From positions 2,448,001 through 2,512,000 of the forward strand of contig NZ_CP013355.1 of assembly GCF_001543325.1 (NCBI RefSeq): DNA of 64,000 bases, given 5' to 3'. Below are positions 18,610 to 28,821 of the stretch, piece by piece; the stretch's first letter is position 1; every line of letters starts with the position of its first letter. The notes under the pieces are model-generated. The model searched no databases. It saw only the letters and a program-made list of their open reading frames with translations, and was not told the DNA's origin. The DNA comes from Lutibacter profundi (GTDB lineage Bacteria; Bacteroidota; Bacteroidia; Flavobacteriales; Flavobacteriaceae). The position numbers and the translations under genes are program-made.

Positions 18610-19785
18610 TTAGAAATTAACAGCTGTTTTGTGAACATGGTTTAATTCCATTAAATGCTGAAGATCCTTATCATTTACTTCCTTACGGTGATCAGCATAG
18701 TTCAAAAATTGAGGGTATAAATCATCCAGTTCTATTTTTGTTAAGTTATAACCAACATTTTTTGCTCGGTAAGCTAAGGCAGCTCTGCCGCTTCTTGCCG
18801 TTAGTACAATAGAAGATTCATTTACACCAACTTCAGCAGGGTTAATTATTTCATAAGTTTCTCTATTTTTAATAACTCCATCTTGATGGATTCCAGAACT
18901 ATGAGCAAAAGCATTTTCTCCAATAATAGCTTTATTTGCTTGAACTCTCATACCCATACTTTCTTGCACAAGTTGACTTGTACTGTACAATAACTTGCTA
19001 TTTATGCCTGTTTCCAAATTTAAATAAGGATGTTGTTTTAAAATCATAACAACTTCTTCTAAGGCAGTATTTCCTGCACGTTCACCAATTCCATTTATGG
19101 TACATTCAATTTGACGAGCTCCGTTTTGAACACCAGCTATTGCATTGGCAGTAGCTAAACCCAAATCGTTATGGCAGTGGCAAGAAAGAATAACATTGTC
19201 AATCCCTTTTACATTTTCTTTGAGGTATTTTATTTTGGCGCCATATTCATCAGGTAAACAATAGCCAGTTGTGTCAGGTATATTTAACACAGTAGCACCA
19301 GCCTTAATTACTTGTTCCAAAACTCTTGCTAAAAATTCATTAGCTGTTCTACCTGCATCTTCAGCGTAAAATTCAACATCTTCAACAAATGATTTGGCGT
19401 AAGAAACAGCTTGTACAGCACGTTCTATTATTTTTTCTTGTGTTGAGTTGAATTTATAAATGATATGAGAATCAGATGTTCCTATTCCGGTATGAATTCT
19501 TGGTCGTTTTGCATATTTTAATGCGGCAGCTGCAACTTCAATATCTTTTTTGTTGGCTCTTGTTAGTCCACAAACAGTTGCATTTTTTACTAATTTTGAA
19601 ATTTTTTCCACAGAAGTAAAATCACCTGGACTTGAGACAGGAAACCCAGCTTCAATTACATCAACACCTAATATGTCTAAGCGTTCTGCAATCACTAATT
19701 TTTGTTCTGTATTTAACTTGCAACCAGGGACTTGTTCTCCATCTCTTAAGGTTGTATCAAAAATTTGGACTTTATTATTACTCAT
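18610..19785 (-). CDS. leuA: 2-isopropylmalate synthase, short form without regulatory domain
   Basis: Condenses acetyl-CoA with 2-oxoisovalerate, the first committed leucine step. It shows the DRE-TIM signature [15 protein letters not shown] at the N-terminus, the metal-binding [16 protein letters not shown] motif (near residue 200), the [16 protein letters not shown] segment and HSSGIHQDG. At 391 residues it stops where the C-terminal allosteric LeuA domain of enzymes of about 510-520 residues would begin, so feedback inhibition by leucine of the usual kind is not expected. A citramalate or homocitrate synthase is possible, but the leuB neighbour argues for leucine. Confidence 0.9.
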
Positions 19786-19935: not shown

Positions 19936-21480
19936 ATGGCTATTGAACAAAAAGATGTGCTTTTTACGTTAATAAAGTCACTTTCAAAATCTGAAAAGAG
20001 ACAATTTAAGTTATATGTTGGTAGATTGGGTGGAAATACCGAAGCTAATTTTATTACGTTATTTAATTTGTTAGATAAAGTAAGTGAATTTAATGATGAT
20101 TTAATTTTAAAGAAAACAAATATAAAAAAGCAACAAATATCGAACACGAAAGCACATTTATACAAACAAATTTTGGTGAGTTTGCGTTTAAACCCTGTGC
20201 ATCAAAACGTGAGGTCTCAAATTAGAGAGCAATTTGATTTTGCTGCAATTTTATACAGCAAGGGTTTGTATAAACAAAGTTTAAAAATTTTAGAGAAAGC
20301 CAAAGAGATATCCTTAAATAATGAAGAGAATAATTTAGCCTTTGAAATAGTAGAGTTTGAGAAGGTTATTGAATCTCAGTACATTACAAGAAGTTTAAGT
20401 AACAGGGCTGAAGAGCTTTCTGCACAAGCAAAGGAGTTGAGTTTAAAAAATGCAAGAGCTAGTAAGCTCTCAAACTTATCACTTCAGCTATATAGTTTAA
20501 TGTTAAAAGAAGGATATGTAAAAGACGATATTGATGCTCAAAAAGTTAAAATTTATTTTGAAAAAAGACTACCTAAATATAAATTGTCAGAATTAGGGTT
20601 TAAAGAGAAATTATTTTTATACAAGGCTTATTTATGGCATAGTTTAATTATGCAAGATTTTGTTTTGAGTTATAAATATTCTCAAAAATGGGTTAATTTG
20701 TTTGAAGAAAATCCAAATATGAAAAAACAAAATTCTGTTTTCTATCTTAAAGGAGTTAATTATTTATTAGAGTCACTTTATTTGATTAAGCATAAAACAA
20801 AATTTAATAAAGTACTTGAAAATTTAAATGCTGATATAGAAAATAAAAATATTGCTATAAATGAAAACACCAATACTTTAACATTTTTATATTATTATCA
20901 AAACAAATTAAATCTTTATTTTTTAGAAGGGCGGTTTCATAAAGGACTTCATTTTGTATCTAAACTATTAAATGAAATTAAAAATTATGAGACCAAGATA
21001 GATGCACATCATATTATGGTTTTTTACTATAAAATTGCTTGTATGTATTTTGGTGCTGGTAAAAATGAAGAGTGCATTTTTTATTTAGAAAAAATAATAA
21101 ATAACAAAAATTTAAAAATGCGTGAAGATTTATTGTGTTTTTCACGAGTACTGAATTTAGTTGCACATTATGATGCCGGTTTAGATTACAATATTGATAA
21201 GTTAATAATATCAACCTATAAGTTTTTACTAAAGATGAATGATTTGCATGAAGTACAGCGTAAAATGATTTCATTTTTAAAAAACCTGAGTACAATTTAC
21301 CCTCAAGACTTACATAAAGCGTTTATAAAATTGCATAAAGAATTGAGTAAATTTGAAAATCATCCTTATGAAAAAAGATCTTTTTTATATTTAGATATTT
21401 TATCGTGGTTAGAAAGTAAAATACAAAATGTACCTGTTGAAGTGATAATTAAACAAAAAGCACAAAAAATGATAAAATAA
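19936..21480 (+). CDS. Conserved helical-repeat protein of unknown function
   Basis: A 514-residue cytoplasmic protein without signal peptide or membrane helix. It is almost wholly predicted helix, with repeated pairs of amphipathic helices (for example SKGLYKQSLKILEKAKEIS near residue 110 and FYYKIACMYFGAGKNEECIF near residue 360) resembling TPR-type solenoids. No catalytic motif is visible. It lies between leuA (divergent) and the ilv attenuator. A TAAATTTG promoter element ends only five bases before its ATG. A regulatory or scaffold role is a guess. The start is supported by the continuous N-terminal helix. Confidence 0.65.
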   Translation: MAIEQKDVLFTLIKSLSKSEKRQFKLYVGRLGGNTEANFITLFNLLDKVSEFNDDLILKKTNIKKQQISNTKAHLYKQILVSLRLNPVHQNVRSQIREQFDFAAILYSKGLYKQSLKILEKAKEISLNNEENNLAFEIVEFEKVIESQYITRSLSNRAEELSAQAKELSLKNARASKLSNLSLQLYSLMLKEGYVKDDIDAQKVKIYFEKRLPKYKLSELGFKEKLFLYKAYLWHSLIMQDFVLSYKYSQKWVNLFEENPNMKKQNSVFYLKGVNYLLESLYLIKHKTKFNKVLENLNADIENKNIAINENTNTLTFLYYYQNKLNLYFLEGRFHKGLHFVSKLLNEIKNYETKIDAHHIMVFYYKIACMYFGAGKNEECIFYLEKIINNKNLKMREDLLCFSRVLNLVAHYDAGLDYNIDKLIISTYKFLLKMNDLHEVQRKMISFLKNLSTIYPQDLHKAFIKLHKELSKFENHPYEKRSFLYLDILSWLESKIQNVPVEVIIKQKAQKMIK

Positions 21481-21517
21481 AAAAGAATAAAATATTTTTT
21501 TATTAAATAAATAATAG

Positions 21518-21525
21518 CATATTTG
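21518..21525 (+). promoter_or_regulatory. Probable -7 element of the ilv operon
   Basis: CATATTTG differs from TAnnTTTG only at its first base and ends 10 bases before the leader-peptide ATG. No TTTG is seen at -33. If right, the mRNA starts only a few bases before the first leader codon. Confidence 0.4.
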
Positions 21526-21535
21526 TTTCATCAAT

Positions 21536-21601
21536 ATGAAAACGTTAATTATTAATATTATTACTATCAATGTCTTTGTGATTATTTCACTAGTAGACTA
21601 G
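21536..21601 (+). CDS. ilv attenuator leader peptide 1 (21 aa, Ile/Leu/Val-rich)
   Basis: A 21-codon frame ATG...TAG whose residues 4-20 read LIINIITINVFVIISLV. Seven Ile, three Val and two Leu make 12 of 21 residues, and two Thr are also present. The bias matches the three end products of the ilv operon that follows. Its stop codon TAG (21599-21601) overlaps the segment AGGAATGTT (21600-21608), which can pair with the left arm of the hairpin beginning 26 bases downstream. This is the standard layout of ribosome-mediated attenuation: stalling on Ile/Val/Leu codons frees the pairing segment, while a ribosome at the stop codon covers it. Confidence 0.82.
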   Translation: MKTLIINIITINVFVIISLVD

Positions 21602-21627
21602 GAATGTTATTGTAATTTATAAAAATT

Positions 21628-21664
21628 AAAAACCTTCCTTGAAATTTTCAGGAAGGTTTTTTTT
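21628..21664 (+). terminator. ilv attenuator terminator 1
   Basis: Stem AAAAACCTTCCT (21628-21639) with AGGAAGGTTTTT (21650-21661) around a small loop, followed by T to 21664. The left arm AACCTTCCT (21631-21639) is complementary at 8 of 9 positions to AGGAATGTT at 21600-21608 over the leader-1 stop codon. Confidence 0.85.
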
Positions 21665-21675
21665 ATGAGGTGATT

Positions 21676-21741
21676 ATGCAAACAACAAATTTAAATAGTA
21701 TTATTTTAATTCAAGTCATTGGTATAAATCTGGTGATTTGA
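21676..21741 (+). CDS. ilv attenuator leader peptide 2 (21 aa, Ile/Leu/Val-rich)
   Basis: A second 21-codon frame, ATG...TGA, beginning 12 bases after the first terminator. Residues 9-21 read IILIQVIGINLVI. In total 11 of 21 residues are Ile, Leu or Val (6 Ile, 3 Leu, 2 Val). The stop TGA (21739-21741) is part of TGATGCA (21739-21745). That segment can pair over 7 bases, one of them G-U, with TGTATCA in the left arm of the second terminator. Same length, same composition and same stop-to-hairpin distance as leader 1 make a chance frame unlikely. Confidence 0.8.
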   Translation: MQTTNLNSIILIQVIGINLVI

Positions 21742-21766
21742 TGCAAGTTGATATTAAAAAATTAAG

Positions 21767-21797
21767 ACCTGTATCATTAAATGATACAGGTTTTTTT
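21767..21797 (+). terminator. ilv attenuator terminator 2
   Basis: Perfect 11-bp stem ACCTGTATCAT (21767-21777) with ATGATACAGGT (21781-21791), loop TAA, then seven T (21791-21797). It begins 25 bases after the stop of leader 2, against 26 bases for leader 1 and its terminator. Confidence 0.87.
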
Positions 21798-22006
21798 ATG
21801 GGATAATCATTGTAAAAAAACAAGATATAACTATCAGGAAAACAGAACTATAAGTAAAATAAAACGACAATGGATATTGTAAAATATAAAAACATAAAAA
21901 ACATAAAACGAATCCCTAATTTAAATTTGCTTTTTATTGAAAAAAACAAATAAAAAGTAGATTGTTTTAAAAATAATTTAAAATAATTTAAAAAGAACTA
22001 AAATAA
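21798..22006 (+). other. Rest of the ilvD 5' leader, no clear element
   Basis: About 209 very AT-rich bases between the second attenuator hairpin and the ilvD ATG. A 27-codon frame at 21870-21953 contains nine Ile/Leu/Val but is Lys/Asn-rich and has no U-tailed hairpin after it, so I do not call it a third leader. No other promoter or structure is convincing. Confidence 0.4.
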
Positions 22007-23689
22007 ATGCAATTAAACAAGTATAGTAAAAGAGTAACGCAAGACCCTACACAGCCAGCAGCACAAGCAATGTTGTATGGTGTGGGGCTTTCAGAACAAG
22101 ATATGAAAAAGCCTCAAGTGGGTATAGTAAGTACGGGTTTTGACGGGAACCCTTGTAATATGCACTTAAATAATTTAGCCTCTCAAATTAAAGAAGAGGT
22201 TAATAAAGAGAATCAAATAGGGCTAATATTTAATACCATTGGAGTAAGTGATGGTATTTCAATGGGAACTTCAGGAATGAATTACTCTTTGCCTTCTCGT
22301 GATATTATTGCCGATTCTATTGAAATAGTTATGAATGCTCAAAGTTATGATGGATTGGTAGCTGTTGTAGGATGTGATAAAAATATGCCAGGAGCAATTA
22401 TAGCAATGTTACGTTTAAATAGACCTTCGTTAATGGTGTATGGAGGTACTATTGCTTCAGGGCGTTATAAAGGTCGAAAATTAAATATTGTTTCTGCATT
22501 TGAAGCATTAGGTCAAAAATTAGCAGGAAATATTTCAGAAGAAGAATATAAAGAAATTATTAAAAATGCCATTCCGGGAGCAGGAGCCTGTGGAGGAATG
22601 TATACGGCAAATACTATGGCATCATCTATTGAGGCTATGGGATTTGCATTACCATATAATTCATCTATTCCTGCTGAAAACCCTCATAAAGAAGGTGAAA
22701 GCTCAAGAATAGCTTCAGCAATTAAAAACTTATTAGAACAAGATTTAAAACCGTTAGATATTATCACTAAAAAATCGTTAGAAAATGCGGTGGCTTTGGT
22801 TAATGCCTTAGGAGGTTCAACCAATGCAGTATTACATTATTTAGCTATTGCACATGCTGCCGAAATTGATTTTACATTGGAAGATTTTCAGTGTGTAAGT
22901 GATAGAACTCCCTTAATAGCCGACTTAAAACCAAGTGGTGAATATTTAATGGAAGATGTTCATGGAGTTGGTGGTACGCCGGCAGTGATGAAATATTTAC
23001 TAGAAAAAGGTTATTTACATGGAGACTGTATGACGGTTACTGGTAAGACATTAGCTGAAAATTTAGCACATGTTAAACCGTTAAGTTTTGAAGAAGATCA
23101 ACAGGTAATTCACCCAACTGAAAAAGCTTTAAAAGCATCTGGAAATCTTCAAATTCTTTATGGAAACTTGGCCACAGAAGGTGCAGTAGCAAAAATAAGT
23201 GGAAAAGAAGGAAATTTATTTGAAGGAAAAGCAGTGGTTTTTAATAGTGAAGAAGAAGCCAATAAAGGTATTGGAGAAGGAAAAGTATCAAAAGGAGATG
23301 TAATTGTAATTAGATATGTGGGGCCAAAAGGAGGTCCAGGAATGCCAGAAATGTTAAAACCAACATCTATGATTATGGGTGCAGGTTTGGGAAAAACAGT
23401 TGCTTTAATTACAGATGGTCGTTTTTCTGGTGGAACTCATGGTTTTGTAGTTGGACATATTACTCCAGAAGCACAGTCTGGAGGCACTATAGCCCTCGTA
23501 AAAGATGGAGACATTATTGTAATTGATGCTTCAGCTAAAACAATTGACGTGAAATTAACAGATGCAGAATTGGCAAAAAGAAAAGCAGAATGGAAAGCAC
23601 CTGCTTTAAAACATAAAAAAGGAATATTATATAAATATGCTAAAACCGTTTCTTCAGCTTCAGAAGGTTGTGTAACGGATAAATTTTAA
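22007..23689 (+). CDS. ilvD: Dihydroxy-acid dehydratase
   Basis: Iron-sulfur enzyme that dehydrates the dihydroxy acids in the third common step to Ile and Val. The 560-residue translation has the conserved blocks of Ilv[13 protein letters not shown] near residue 45, [10 protein letters not shown] near residue 122, [14 protein letters not shown] near residue 193, and [21 protein letters not shown] near the C-terminus. The cluster-ligand Cys residues in NPCN, GCDK and ACGG are all present. It is the first structural gene after the tandem attenuators and is followed by ilvB after four bases. Confidence 0.95.
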
Positions 23690-23693
23690 ATAT

Positions 23694-25427
23694 ATGGAGA
23701 CATTAAAAAAAGATATTCAAGAAGGGATAGCTGAAAAGATGATAAAAATAACAGGAGCAGAGGCAGTCATAAAATGTTTATTAGAAGAAGGTGTTAATTT
23801 AGCCTATGGTTATCCAGGTGGTGCAATTATGCCAGTATATGATGAAATATATAAATATCAAGATCAATTTCACCACGTATTAACACGTCATGAACAAGGA
23901 GCTATTCATGCCGCACAGGGGTTTGCACGCGTAACAGGAAAAGTAGGGATGGTTTTTGCAACTTCAGGCCCAGGCGCTACTAATTTGGTAACGGGTATTG
24001 CTGATGCTCAAATAGATTCTACTCCATTGGTTTGTATTACAGGTCAGGTTGGGTCACATTTATTAGGTTCAGATGCTTTTCAAGAAACAGATATTATTGG
24101 AATTTCAACACCGGTAACAAAATGGAATTATCAAATAACAAAGGCGAGTGAAATACCAGAAGTAATTGCAAAAGCATTTTACATTGCTAAATCTGGTCGT
24201 CCAGGACCCGTTTTAATTGATATTACGAAAGATGCTCAATTTGGAGAGTTAGATTTTTCCTATAAAAAATGTAAAAAAGTTAGAAGTTATAGGGCTATTC
24301 CAAAATTAAATATAGCACAAGTTAAAGAAGCTGCAGCGCTAATTAATAGCGCTAAAAAACCCTTCATAGTTTGGGGACAAGGTGTTATTATTGGTGGAGC
24401 AGAACAAGAGTTTAAAAATTTTATTGAAAAAACAGATATTCCATCAGCATCAACAGTTTTAGGACTTTCAGCTTTAGAGACGAAGCACCCTTTAAATGTT
24501 GGTATGGTTGGTATGCACGGTAATTATGCGCCAAATGTACTAACTAATTCTTGTGATGTTTTAATTGCCATTGGAATGCGTTTTGATGATCGGGTTACTG
24601 GAAATTTAGCAACCTATGCAAAACAAGCTAAAGTGATTCATTTTGATATTGACCCTGCAGAAATAGACAAAAACGTAAAAACGGATATTGCTGTTATAGC
24701 CGATGTTAAAGAATCGTTAGCCGAAATTATGCAGTATGTTAATAAAACCGAGCATAAAGAATGGATGCAAGAATTTAATAAATTATATAATATTGAACAT
24801 GAAGCTGTAATTAATAATCAGTTAAACCCTACTAAAAAGGGATTAACAATGGGTGAAGTTATTGGTGGAATTAATAAAGAAACTAAAGGAGATGCTGTTA
24901 TGGTTTCAGACGTTGGTCAGCATCAAATGTTTGCGTGTCGTTATGCGGATTTTATAAAAACAAGAAGTAATGTAACATCAGGTGGTTTAGGAACTATGGG
25001 ATTTGCGTTGCCAGCATCAATAGGTGCAAAAATGGGTGTTCCAAATCGTGAAGTTGTGGCAATTATTGGTGATGGAGGTTATCAAATGACCTGCAATGAA
25101 TTAGGTACAATTCTTCAAACAAAAGTACCTGTTAAAATTGTAGTATTAAATAATAGTTATTTAGGAATGGTTCGTCAATGGCAAGAATTATTTTTTGACA
25201 AGCGTTATGCTTCTACCGAAATGGTAAGTCCAGATTTTGTAAAGCTTGCAGAAGCTTATGATATTGAAGCTGTTAGAGTTTCGAAACGTGAAGATTTAGC
25301 AGACGCAATTAAAACAATGATTGCTTCAAAAGAAACATATTTTTTAGAAGTTGTGATAGAACAAGAAGATAATGTGTTTCCAATGATACCAACAGGAGCA
25401 AGTGTTTCAGATATAAGATTAAGTTAA
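23694..25427 (+). CDS. ilvB: Acetolactate synthase, large (catalytic) subunit
   Basis: Thiamine-diphosphate enzyme that makes acetolactate or acetohydroxybutyrate from pyruvate. The 577 residues show the TPP-activating Glu in LTRHEQGAIHAAQG (near residue 63), the FATSGPGATNLVTGIADA block, the FDDRVTG motif, and the TPP/Mg-binding GDGGYQMTCNELGTILQ motif near residue 460. It is paired with the small subunit gene two bases downstream. The N-terminus has about 15 extra residues compared with many homologues. A Met inside that stretch (MIKITGAEAV, residue 17) could be an alternative start. Confidence 0.95.
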   Translation: METLKKDIQEGIAEKMIKITGAEAVIKCLLEEGVNLAYGYPGGAIMPVYDEIYKYQDQFHHVLTRHEQGAIHAAQGFARVTGKVGMVFATSGPGATNLVTGIADAQIDSTPLVCITGQVGSHLLGSDAFQETDIIGISTPVTKWNYQITKASEIPEVIAKAFYIAKSGRPGPVLIDITKDAQFGELDFSYKKCKKVRSYRAIPKLNIAQVKEAAALINSAKKPFIVWGQGVIIGGAEQEFKNFIEKTDIPSASTVLGLSALETKHPLNVGMVGMHGNYAPNVLTNSCDVLIAIGMRFDDRVTGNLATYAKQAKVIHFDIDPAEIDKNVKTDIAVIADVKESLAEIMQYVNKTEHKEWMQEFNKLYNIEHEAVINNQLNPTKKGLTMGEVIGGINKETKGDAVMVSDVGQHQMFACRYADFIKTRSNVTSGGLGTMGFALPASIGAKMGVPNREVVAIIGDGGYQMTCNELGTILQTKVPVKIVVLNNSYLGMVRQWQELFFDKRYASTEMVSPDFVKLAEAYDIEAVRVSKREDLADAIKTMIASKETYFLEVVIEQEDNVFPMIPTGASVSDIRLS

Positions 25428-25429
25428 TT

Positions 25430-25951
25430 ATGGAAGAAAATAAAAATTTTACAGTTTCGGTATATACCGAAAATAATATAGGAATATTAAATCGTATTTC
25501 AGCAATATTTTTAAAACGCCATATCAATATTGAAAGTATGACCGTTTCAAAATCTGAGATTGAACACGTACATAGATTTACTTTTGTGGTTGAAGTACCA
25601 GAAACTTTAATAAGAAAAGTTGTTGGTCAGTTAGAAAAACAAATTGAAGTTATAAGAGCTTTTTATCATACTGAAGATGAAATTATATACCACGAAACAG
25701 CGTTGTTTAAAATTGCATCAACACATTTATACGATGAAAAAATTCAAGATAAATTAAAATTTAGAAGAGCACATATAATTGCAATAACTGAGCGTTATTT
25801 TGTAATTGAAGCTTCTGGTTTAAAAGAAGATATAAATAGAATGTATGAAAAACTAAAACCATTTGGTTTATTACAGTTTGTTCGTTCGGGGCGTATAGCA
25901 ATTACGCGACCTAAAATGGCGATTACAGAACTATTAGAAGAAATTAATTAG
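25430..25951 (+). CDS. ilvN: Acetolactate synthase, small (regulatory) subunit
   Basis: ACT-domain subunit that activates the catalytic subunit and confers feedback inhibition by valine. In 173 residues the ACT domain begins at once ([24 protein letters not shown]), with the [21 protein letters not shown] strand after it and a second alpha/beta half ([17 protein letters not shown]). The length matches IlvH/IlvN types with a C-terminal extension. Two bases separate it from ilvB, so the subunits are probably made in balance. Confidence 0.93.
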
Positions 25952-25971: not shown

Positions 25972-27444
25972 ATGACAAATTATTTTAATACACTTTCATT
26001 AAGAGAAAAATTAGATCAACTAGGAAAATGTAGATTTATGGATTCTTCTGAATTTAAGGAAGGTGTTAAAGCTTTAAAAGATAAAAAAATAGTAATTGTT
26101 GGTTGTGGAGCTCAAGGCTTAAACCAAGGGCTAAATATGAGAGATTCGGGTTTAGATGTTTCTTATACATTAAGACCAGCTGCAATTTCTGAAAAAAGAC
26201 AATCTTTTTTAAATGCTTCTGAAAATAAATTTAAAGTTGGAACCTATGAAGAAATGATTCCTTCGGCAGATTTATTAATCAACTTAACACCTGATAAACA
26301 GCATACCTCAGTAGTTTCTGCAGTAATGCCCTTAATGAAAAAAGGAGCAACGTTATCGTATTCTCATGGGTTTAATATTGTGGAAGAAGGAATGCAAATA
26401 CGGAAAGATATCACCGTAATTATGGTTGCACCAAAGTCACCAGGTTCAGAGGTTAGAGAAGAATTTAAAAGAGGGTTTGGTGTACCAACATTAATAGCTG
26501 TACATCCTGAAAATGATCCAGAAGGTAAAGGTTGGGATTATGCCAAAGCTTATGCTGTTGCTACGGGAGGACATACTGCAGGAGTTTTAGAATCTTCATT
26601 TGTTGCTGAAGTAAAATCAGATTTAATGGGAGAGCAAACAATTCTTTGCGGACTGTTACAAACGGGTTCTATTTTATGTTTTGATAAAATGATAGATGAA
26701 GGTGTAGAGGCTGGTTATGCTTCAAAATTAGTTCAATACGGATGGGAAACAGTAACAGAAGCTTTAAAACATGGTGGAATTACCAATATGATGGATAGAT
26801 TATCCAATCCTGCGAAAGTAGCTGCATTTAAAGTTTCAGAAGAATTAAAAGAAATTATGCGTCCACTTTTTCAAAAACATATGGATGATATTATGTCAGG
26901 TCATTTTTCAAAAACAATGATGGAAGATTGGGCAAATGATGATGTGAATTTGTTAACTTGGAGAGCTGCAACTGGTGAAACTGCTTTTGAAAAAACACCA
27001 GCAAGTGCGGTTGAAATTTCAGAACAAGAATATTTTGATAAAGGGACATTAATGGTTGCTATGGTTAAAGCAGGTGTAGAACTAGCTTTTGAATCAATGA
27101 CTGAATCTGGAATTATTGAAGAATCAGCCTATTATGAATCTTTGCATGAAACGCCATTAATAGCAAATACTATTGCACGTAAAAAATTATTTGAAATGAA
27201 TAGAGTGATTTCTGATACAGCAGAGTATGGATGTTACTTATTTGACCATGCGTGTAAACCTTTAATAGCTGATTATGTAAGTAATTTACCTAGCAATTTA
27301 GTAGGAAGACCTTTTAATAACTGTGATAATGGAGTAGATAATAAAGAATTAATTGAAGTAAATACAGCAATAAGAAATCACCCCGTTGAAGATATTGGAG
27401 AATATCTTCGTGATTCTATGACAGCAATGACAAAAATTGTTTAA
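25972..27444 (+). CDS. ilvC: Ketol-acid reductoisomerase, class II
   Basis: Isomerises and reduces acetolactate in the second common step of Ile/Val synthesis. The N-terminal Rossmann motif is [18 protein letters not shown] (near residue 43). The long C-terminal part carries [12 protein letters not shown] (Mg-binding) and [16 protein letters not shown]. At 490 residues it is the class II form known from E. coli and plants, with a duplicated C-terminal helical domain, rather than the class I form of about 330 residues. Spacing of 20 bases from ilvN fits one operon. Confidence 0.95.
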
Positions 27445-27558
27445 TTAAAAATGAGCTGACATTTCTGTTTGTTACTGAATGGATTAGAAGTAAGGCAAGA
27501 ACCTCATGATTTTTAAAACTACATTCAAAAACTAGTTAATATAGATTGACAATATTTG

Positions 27559-28821
27559 ATGAAAATTACGACTAAAAACAGCATTTCTTTAGAGAAAATA
27601 TATAAAGCTCAGCAAAACATCAAAGGAGTTGTAGAACAAACTCCTTTGGTTTTTATGAAAAATTTCTCTGAACGATACCAAGCAAAAATTTACTTCAAAA
27701 GAGAAGATTTACAAGTAGTTAGATCGTATAAAATAAGAGGTGCTTATAATAAAATTCAGAGTTTAACAAAAGAAGATTTAAAGAATGGAATTGTATGTGC
27801 AAGTGCAGGAAATCATGCACAAGGAGTTGCTTATGCTTGTCAGAAATTAAAAGTTTACGGTACTATTTTTATGCCTGTAACAACACCACATCAAAAAATT
27901 GATCAGGTTAAAATGTTTGGTGGTACATTTATAGAAATTCAACTTTTTGGTGATAGTTTCGACGATAGTCAAAAAGCTGCTATTGAGTTTTGTACTACGA
28001 ATAAAAAAGCTTTTGTACACCCATTTGATGATTTAGAAGTAATAGCAGGACAGGGAACAGTTGGGCTAGAAATTTTGAATGAAAGCTCTAGTTCTATTGA
28101 TTATTTATTTCTCCCTGTTGGCGGAGGTGGTTTAGCATCTGGTATGTCAACTGTATTTAATGTATTAAGTCCAAAAACTAAAATAGTTGGTGTAGAACCA
28201 AAAGGAGCGCCATCATTAACTACGTCATTAAAAAACAAAAAAAATACAACACTTTTAGAAATTGATAATTTTGTTGATGGAGCTGCCGTAAAGCGAATGG
28301 GAGAATTAACTTTTGAATTTTGTAAAGAGTTGTTGGATGATACCAATACCATTTGCGAAGGGCTTATTTGTTCAACCATTTTAAAAGTATATAACGAAAA
28401 TGCGATGGTAGTTGAGCCAGCAGGAGCATTATCTATAGCAGCTCTTGAAGACTACAAAGAGGAGATAAAAGGGAAAACAGTAGTTTGTGTGGTAAGTGGA
28501 GGTAATAACGATATTACCCGAATGGAGGAAATAAAAGAGCGCGCCTTATTTTATGAGGGTTTAAAACATTATTTTATCATAAAATTCCCTCAACGTGCAG
28601 GCGCTTTAAAGGAATTTGTGGTAGATGTATTGGGACCAAATGATGATATTGCTTATTTTGAATATACCAAAAAGCACAATAGAGATAAAGGGCCAGCAGT
28701 TGTTGGAATTGAATTAGATTCAAAAGATGATTTTGAACCTTTAGTAGAAAGAATGAAGCAAAAAGGATTTTTAGGTGAATATTTAAATGAAAAGCCTGAA
28801 TTATTTCAATTTATGATTTGA
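27559..28821 (+). CDS. ilvA: Threonine ammonia-lyase (threonine dehydratase, biosynthetic)
   Basis: PLP enzyme that makes 2-oxobutyrate for isoleucine. The PLP-lysine motif is seen as REDLQVVRSYKIRGAYNK near residue 55, the CASAGNHAQGVAYAC phosphate-side block near residue 82, and the glycine loop PVGGGGLASG near residue 185. One ACT-like regulatory domain follows (HYFIIKFPQRAGALKEFV), shorter than the double domain of E. coli IlvA. I use ATG 27559; a TTG directly before it is also in frame. A 114-base gap after ilvC holds no clear terminator, so it probably belongs to the ilv transcript. Confidence 0.93.
   Translation: MKITTKNSISLEKIYKAQQNIKGVVEQTPLVFMKNFSERYQAKIYFKREDLQVVRSYKIRGAYNKIQSLTKEDLKNGIVCASAGNHAQGVAYACQKLKVYGTIFMPVTTPHQKIDQVKMFGGTFIEIQLFGDSFDDSQKAAIEFCTTNKKAFVHPFDDLEVIAGQGTVGLEILNESSSSIDYLFLPVGGGGLASGMSTVFNVLSPKTKIVGVEPKGAPSLTTSLKNKKNTTLLEIDNFVDGAAVKRMGELTFEFCKELLDDTNTICEGLICSTILKVYNENAMVVEPAGALSIAALEDYKEEIKGKTVVCVVSGGNNDITRMEEIKERALFYEGLKHYFIIKFPQRAGALKEFVVDVLGPNDDIAYFEYTKKHNRDKGPAVVGIELDSKDDFEPLVERMKQKGFLGEYLNEKPELFQFMI

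Follow-up and report, generated by a model that had tools for sequence, protein, structure and literature searches.

Why should a single operon for the synthesis of branched-chain amino acids be preceded by two short leader frames, each followed by a terminator of its own? The question is raised by the ilv operon of Lutibacter profundi, which lies in the window analyzed here, a stretch of 64,000 nucleotides from a genome that consists of a single contig of 2,966,978 bases. Between a gene for a TPR-like protein (19936–21480) and ilvD (start at 22007), the modules A (21536–21664) and B (21676–21797) follow one another, and each consists of an Ile/Val/Leu-rich frame, an antiterminator strand at the leader stop codon and a U-tailed hairpin. 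The two are very probably complete transcription attenuators of the ribosome-mediated kind, placed one after the other between a single promoter and ilvD-ilvB-ilvN-ilvC-ilvA, genes whose profile matches identify enzymes with isoleucine and valine as their products.

Anatomy of the ilv leader

The features of the locus are as follows.

21518–21525, plus strand: promoter-like CATATTTG just before leader A, with one mismatch to TAnnTTTG
21536–21601, plus strand: leader A, MKTLIINIITINVFVIISLVD, 12 of 21 residues Ile, Leu or Val, stop codon TAG; a reading frame with homologs in 28 of 28 Lutibacter loci
21578–21590, plus strand: small hairpin GTGA-TTATT-TCAC in the last codons of leader A, from the alignment
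21599–21609, plus strand: antiterminator strand A, beginning at the stop codon, from the alternative fold and the exchange test
21629–21664, plus strand: terminator A, CCTTCC hairpin and a run of eight Ts, from the fold
21676–21741, plus strand: leader B, MQTTNLNSIILIQVIGINLVI, 11 of 21 residues Ile, Leu or Val, stop codon TGA; a reading frame whose module occurs in 11 of 28 Lutibacter loci
21712–21740, plus strand: 1:2-type hairpin of leader B codons and the stop-codon region, a predicted fold
21738–21749, plus strand: antiterminator strand B, TTGATGCAAGTT, overlapping the stop codon and nearly identical to the 3' arm of terminator B
21767–21797, plus strand: terminator B, CCTGTATC hairpin and a run of seven Ts, from the fold
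21922–21929, plus strand: TAAATTTG, conserved in Lutibacter loci, a possible internal promoter downstream of both terminators
22007–23689, plus strand: ilvD, first gene of the operon (TIGR00110, 736.6 bits)
23694–25427, plus strand: ilvB (TIGR00118)
25430–25951, plus strand: ilvN (TIGR00119)
25972–27444, plus strand: ilvC (NF003557)
27556–28821, plus strand: ilvA, threonine ammonia-lyase (NF006390)

The two consecutive modules that the initial annotation placed ahead of ilvD are present, its counts of branched-chain residues in the 21-codon frames come out the same on rechecking, and the strong T-run stem-loops that it described after each leader fold at −14.2 kcal/mol (hairpin A, 21629–21660, with eight Ts from 21657) and −13.6 kcal/mol (hairpin B, 21767–21791, with seven Ts from 21791). 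Its distances from stop codon to hairpin, 26 and 25 bases, need one correction: the 25 bases of module B, counted from the TGA at 21739–21741, stand, and the value for module A, with the TAG at 21599–21601, is 27 by the hairpin ends used here. Leader B starts 11 bases past the T-run of terminator A. The strand TAGGAATGTT, which runs from the stop codon of leader A, can pair with the 5' arm of terminator A, AACCTTCCT. The antiterminator strands of both modules, which go beyond what the initial annotation described, occupy the position expected in a classic attenuator, where a ribosome halted at the stop codon would cover them. The locus also has two further features of a leader-peptide attenuator, a short frame rich in branched-chain amino acid codons in front of its own operon and an intrinsic terminator before ilvD.

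No Rfam family accounts for this leader at its gathering score. The window contains no family that reaches it, and the T-box covariance model has no match at that score; the 11 matches at E ≤ 10 within 21450–22010 do not include it either. RF01692, which presumably contains a Trp leader, has no match in the same interval up to E = 10. The amino-acid leaders of Rfam (Leu, Thr, Phe, His, Trp and Bacteroid-trp) were rejected as candidates, with only Phe_leader (22.2 bits) and Thr_leader (15.8 bits) giving matches, each against a cut-off of 55.

Two further observations concern the surroundings of the modules. The sequence ATTGTAAAA occurs twice between terminator B and ilvD (21809–21817 and 21876–21884, 67 bases apart), and both copies are retained, slightly altered, in most of 11 aligned Lutibacter loci. 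On the minus strand, LeuA (18610–19785) has 391 amino acids and its best model match spans only positions 3–385 of 516, so that, to judge from this match, the C-terminal part of the protein, which in LeuA is regulatory, seems to be absent; no leader was seen ahead of leuA (minus strand, upstream of 19785).

Chance, alternative folds and co-change of pairing partners

Modules of this kind are not a common product of AT-rich sequence. A fixed detector (an ATG frame of 12–35 codons with at least 35% Ile, Leu and Val, separated by 14–50 bases from a downstream hairpin of −9 kcal/mol or lower with a U tail) gives two modules in the window itself and none in 138 reverse complements, and in 1,380 shuffles that preserve dinucleotides (10 for each of 138 upstream regions) it finds one single module and no double one, which bears out the claim of the initial annotation that coincidence is improbable. 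A relaxed version of the detector reported single modules 16 times in 690 shuffles, as well as a false tandem in L203, and its output was excluded from the counts. On both strands of the 64-kb window, no other ATG frame of 10–40 codons before such a terminator exceeds 30% Ile, Leu and Val. The terminator folds of A and B were equaled in 0 of 200 shuffles of their own stretch, either one.

The antiterminators present a more uneven picture. Antiterminator A in the window (−6.8 kcal/mol) is no better than shuffles, 61 of 200 being as good, and over the 28 Lutibacter loci the A antiterminators have a mean z of 1.5, with 8 of 28 reaching the 5% level. For antiterminator B, the fold in the window (−8.2 kcal/mol, z −3.2) is matched by 3 of 200 shuffles, and the mean z over 10 Lutibacter loci is 3.1, with 7 of 10 reaching 5%.

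The stronger evidence comes from an exchange test on 75 modules (8 Lutibacter loci contributed 12, the family 45 and named loci 18; two pairs are identical in sequence and one module, that of L106, is doubtful). The stop-codon strand pairs with the terminator arm of its own module at a mean of −8.6 kcal/mol, compared with −6.4 ± 0.25 kcal/mol for exchanged partners, and no permutation was as good overall (0 of 2,000) or for type A (0 of 2,000), with 16 of 2,000 for type B. The stop-codon strand and the terminator arm thus change together across modules: where the hairpin is GCCATTC, for example, GAATGG is found close to the stop codon, and a CCTGTATC hairpin is accompanied by GATAC.

A masking model of the ribosome in the window places the antiterminator pairing at 0.00 in both modules when a ribosome sits at the stop codon, at 0.98 or more when it is stalled at codons 1–18 of leader A, and at 0.55–1.00 for codons 4–21 of leader B. 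By this computation, the antiterminator and the terminator would exclude each other, and a ribosome resting at the end of the leader would hide the antiterminator. Extended to modules of the genus, the family and the named loci, the model is in accord with the mechanism. It is not leaned on because shuffled spacers do nearly as well, still pairing at 0.84 (A) and 0.74 (B), so that it discriminates poorly; in Lutibacter, moreover, 6 of the 28 A modules and 2 of the 10 B modules retain pairing above 0.5 even with a ribosome placed on the stop codon. With no translation, the default state that it gives for the window is 0.92 in module A and 0.05 in module B, and this state varied between species.

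Each module also has a hairpin within its leader. The GTGA-TTATT-TCAC hairpin of leader A, a putative pause or protector hairpin, has 4 of 7 pairs changed on both sides, with 78.6% of the cells paired; it was chosen by eye on the same alignment that was later used for covariation scoring, and RNAalifold on the module A alignment predicts the terminator only and not this hairpin. Taken together, terminator A and the GTGA hairpin comprise 18 pairs, of which 8 have changes on both sides; the corresponding value in shuffles is 3.2, and none of 500 was as good. The predicted pairing of codons with the stop-codon region in leader B resembles the 1:2 hairpin of classic attenuators and has 92% of the cells paired in 10 sequences, with little covariation; the signal for the whole module B structure is weak, with 3 covarying pairs against 1.5 in shuffles and 59 of 500 shuffles as good.

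Distribution in Lutibacter and the Flavobacteriaceae

Within the genus, 38 genomes were searched (the source genome included), of which 33 have IlvD, giving 30 loci; L011 (491 bases upstream, in which nothing was found) and L023 (195 bases) were dropped, leaving 28. Module A is present in all 28, the source locus included, and module B in 11, ten of them found by script and one (L006) with a GTG start. The automatic count had been 11 two-module loci out of 30; it missed L006, its second module in L025 was a false call, and in L014 and L026 it saw no module, module A being found there by a hairpin-led script. The leader A frames are 19–21 codons long, apart from L015, which reads on to 26. Remnants of the B terminator region are visible in L008 and L014, and on a tree of ilvD plus the start of ilvB, the presence of B requires six state changes (28 loci, with L006 scored as lacking B).

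The family search covered 149 genomes from 148 genera, 118 of them with IlvD at E ≤ 1e-150; after removal of two Lutibacter and omission of the eight lowest-scoring IlvD loci, 108 genera remained. The strict detector finds modules in 40 of these (35 single, 5 double). Two covariance models, built from Lutibacter alone (R1 for module A and R2 for module B), with each place assigned to the better-scoring one, find A in 41 and B in 19 of the 108 at 48 bits or more, a cut fixed after antisense matches had been seen up to 45.4 bits. By detector and models combined, at least one module is present in 58 of the 108 non-Lutibacter genera, and both are present in 8 (L157, L160, L181, L184, L187, L189, L201 and L211), with A preceding B in 8 of 8. 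The gap from A to B, measured between the ends of the model matches, is 5–16 bases in seven of these tandem genera and 44 bases in L187; in most of them, therefore, there is little room for a separate promoter of B. Neither the detector nor the covariance models found a module in the other 50 genera. In L188, rejected as a tandem with a module B of 32.4 bits and a hairpin without a T-run, positions 583–712 hold a second leader and a CCTGTATC-like hairpin without a T-run, perhaps a decayed module B.

The initial annotation had made its reading depend on conservation of the two short frames, with synonymous-type substitution. Conservation is borne out by the counts above for Lutibacter and the family, and the pattern of substitution is mixed. 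Codon position 2 is the most conserved in type A leaders (entropy 0.53, against 0.78 and 0.80 at the other positions), and it is the least variable, by pairwise differences, in the A and B leaders of the family; in the B leaders of Lutibacter, it is the most variable position and coding constraint is not evident.

Outside the two modules, the best R1 match in the source genome scores 41.1 bits (150 of 7,506 candidates scored) and the best R2 match 37.9 bits (150 of 10,487 candidates scored), the high scores of the window's own modules being a matter of construction; 13 places inspected as possible further copies turned out to be ordinary-looking terminators or nothing. When applied to 21 whole genomes of the family, R2 gives 23 matches at E ≤ 0.01 in 14 genomes, and besides the window's two, only one of these, in G038 (59.3 bits), lies just before ilvD. 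The specificity of R2 is limited. Matches away from ilvD, such as G038:C12:499272-499386 (49.6 bits) and G049:C18:297670-297778 (52.5 bits), are possibly attenuators of other genes.

Beyond these sets, 14 of 77 named loci (L034 to L110) have one module, of which that of L106 looks false, and 2 have two. The two-module leaders, from Aquimarina (L061) and an Ignavibacteriae bin (L054), are not of the A-B types, which suggests that tandems arose more than once. A phylum sample of 43 non-duplicate loci (8 places left out) contains 5 single modules and no tandems. Four loci of this sample, all from one other Bacteroidota family (L255, L259, L263 and L264), have a recurrent leader MLS.IISLVIIQIIGIPYR before ilvD, approximately MLSxIISLVIIQIIGIPYR, with a hairpin like CCTTCCC; one of the four begins with MRT.

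Proposed operation of the tandem leader and its alternatives

The mechanism proposed for the pair is that of a classic attenuator applied twice. The promoter-like CATATTTG would start the transcript: it was compared with TAnnTTTG, which we take to be the −7 box of Bacteroidota, and ATATTTG lies 14–20 bases before the start of leader A in 24 of 28 Lutibacter loci (by eye), with variants in two more. When charged tRNA-Ile and tRNA-Val (for module B, perhaps also tRNA-Leu) are ample, the translating ribosome would run to the leader stop codon and cover the antiterminator strand, and the terminator would form; when charged tRNA is short, the ribosome would stall upstream, the strand would pair with the 5' arm of the terminator, and the polymerase would pass. 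Because the 11-base gap between A and B leaves little room for a promoter, passage through A and then B would be obligatory, and read-through would multiply, from p for each switch to p squared, so that the basal level would drop and the response to starvation for isoleucine or valine would steepen.

What the two switches sense bears on whether they perform logic. The 28 A leaders of Lutibacter contain 29.8% Ile, 15.6% Val and 4.2% Leu, and the 10 B leaders contain 35.0% Ile, 10.2% Val and 12.2% Leu; in other genera, the share of Leu differs little (8.5% in B, 5.4% in A). Since the leaders read largely the same amino acids, one signal would be sensed twice, and a deeper off state and a steeper response are to be expected rather than two-signal logic. 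The AND gate suggested by the initial annotation is thus retained as two switches in series and given up as logic on two inputs.

With its order retained, the pair is found again in related genomes and hence looks like a two-stage gate shaped by selection, not like a chance arrangement, and the phyletic pattern is read as that of an old two-cassette device with repeated loss. On balance, it seems probable, if only slightly so, that the Flavobacteriaceae possess a two-stage gate of distinct cassettes A and B, in fixed order and mostly abutting, which senses the same starvation twice, gives a near-digital response of the ilv genes, and is old and repeatedly reduced to A or B alone.

Three alternatives, each unlikely, address different parts of this reading. 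It is improbable that only one module is active and the second a relic in the course of being lost, such that the tandem has no special regulatory effect. Module B is dispensable, given that 17 of 28 Lutibacter loci lack an intact copy, and the six changes of state on the tree, with the remnants in L008 and L014, speak for this alternative; but both modules of the window retain the frame, the antiterminator strand and the U-tailed hairpin, eight other genera keep both modules in unchanged order, and in type B modules the terminator arm changes along with the stop-codon strand. There is likewise only a small chance that the gate has different inputs, with A reading isoleucine and valine, B adding leucine, and the pair telling these starvations apart: the higher share of Leu in the B leaders of Lutibacter and an Ile-Leu codon pair, ATTTTA, invariant in the 10 aligned B leaders, are consistent with this, but the difference is small in other genera and Ile and Val dominate both leaders. 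A Leu-specific role for B, hinted at in Lutibacter only, was accordingly set aside.

The third alternative shifts the weight from the attenuators to a downstream promoter, with TAAATTTG at 21922–21929 as the main promoter of ilvD and the attenuators in charge of a minor transcript. This element, an exact match to TAnnTTTG, is a promoter or operator candidate by its sequence, and transcripts from it may skip both modules and weaken the control. Of the 28 Lutibacter loci, 26 have TAnnTTTG at 72–86 bases upstream of ilvD, 25 of them in the form TAAATTTG, compared with 6% of shuffles; however, a TTG-like −33 partner was not seen by eye at the usual distance, and the longer message seems to be of importance, given that the modules are maintained. 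That the leader is largely bypassed in this way is doubtful. In many Lutibacter loci, CAAAT precedes TAAATTTG (by eye). Finally, it is extremely improbable that the frames are AT-rich accidents and the hairpins ordinary terminators, one of which would serve the TPR-like gene upstream: no other terminator was found from 21480 to leader A, so that hairpin A may end upstream transcription as well, and AT-rich sequence favors Ile, Leu and Val codons, but same-dinucleotide shuffles contained a module only once in 1,380, frames of 19–21 codons recur in 28 of 28 Lutibacter loci, and 58 of 108 genera have modules.

A serial attenuator has partial counterparts among known systems. The attenuators of ilvGMEDA and ilvB in Escherichia coli are of the same branched-chain amino acid leader kind. 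The ilvBNC attenuator of Corynebacterium glutamicum, with its leader IlvL, likewise combines, in the portion of the source cited, a leader of branched-chain amino acid codons with an antiterminator that competes with a terminator ahead of ilv genes (PMC11857589). Unlike the Lutibacter leader, the attenuators of these two bacteria have one module and belong to other phyla, and no sequence likeness is claimed. Closer to home, the cited passage on Flavobacterium psychrophilum, from the same family as Lutibacter, reports clues for leader-peptide attenuation before amino-acid operons and names neither ilvD nor a tandem (PMC9723704). RF01692, the Bacteroid-trp motif, is included among the cis-regulatory motifs of Bacteroidetes (PMC2864571).

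Two short frames that act as attenuators in one leader are shared with mgtCBR of Salmonella, where, as described in the cited excerpt, the attenuators respond to different signals (ATP and proline) with additive effects, and two intrinsic terminators are lacking, unlike in the tandem metE leader (PMC3641672). In Lutibacter, by contrast, each module has its own terminator and both would read the same pathway, with Ile and Val codons dominant in each. A functional parallel is offered by the tandem T-box riboswitches that precede ilv, leu and trp operons in Bacillota, for which the cited part of the source proposes a digital, pseudo-cooperative response (PMC12452182). Like the Lutibacter leader as read here, they place two full switches that respond to tRNA charging one behind the other ahead of an operon of this type. 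The sensors differ: T-boxes bind uncharged tRNA directly, whereas the sensor in Lutibacter would be the translating ribosome. Serial classic leader-peptide attenuators for one amino-acid pathway were not found among the matches listed from the open-licence literature.

Serial sensing of one signal is already known from tandem T-boxes and riboswitches. Genomes with A only, B only and A-B occur naturally within one family, which makes the gain from a second attenuator directly testable. That terminators read by ribosomes are maintained also points to a coupling of transcription with translation over such leaders in Bacteroidota.
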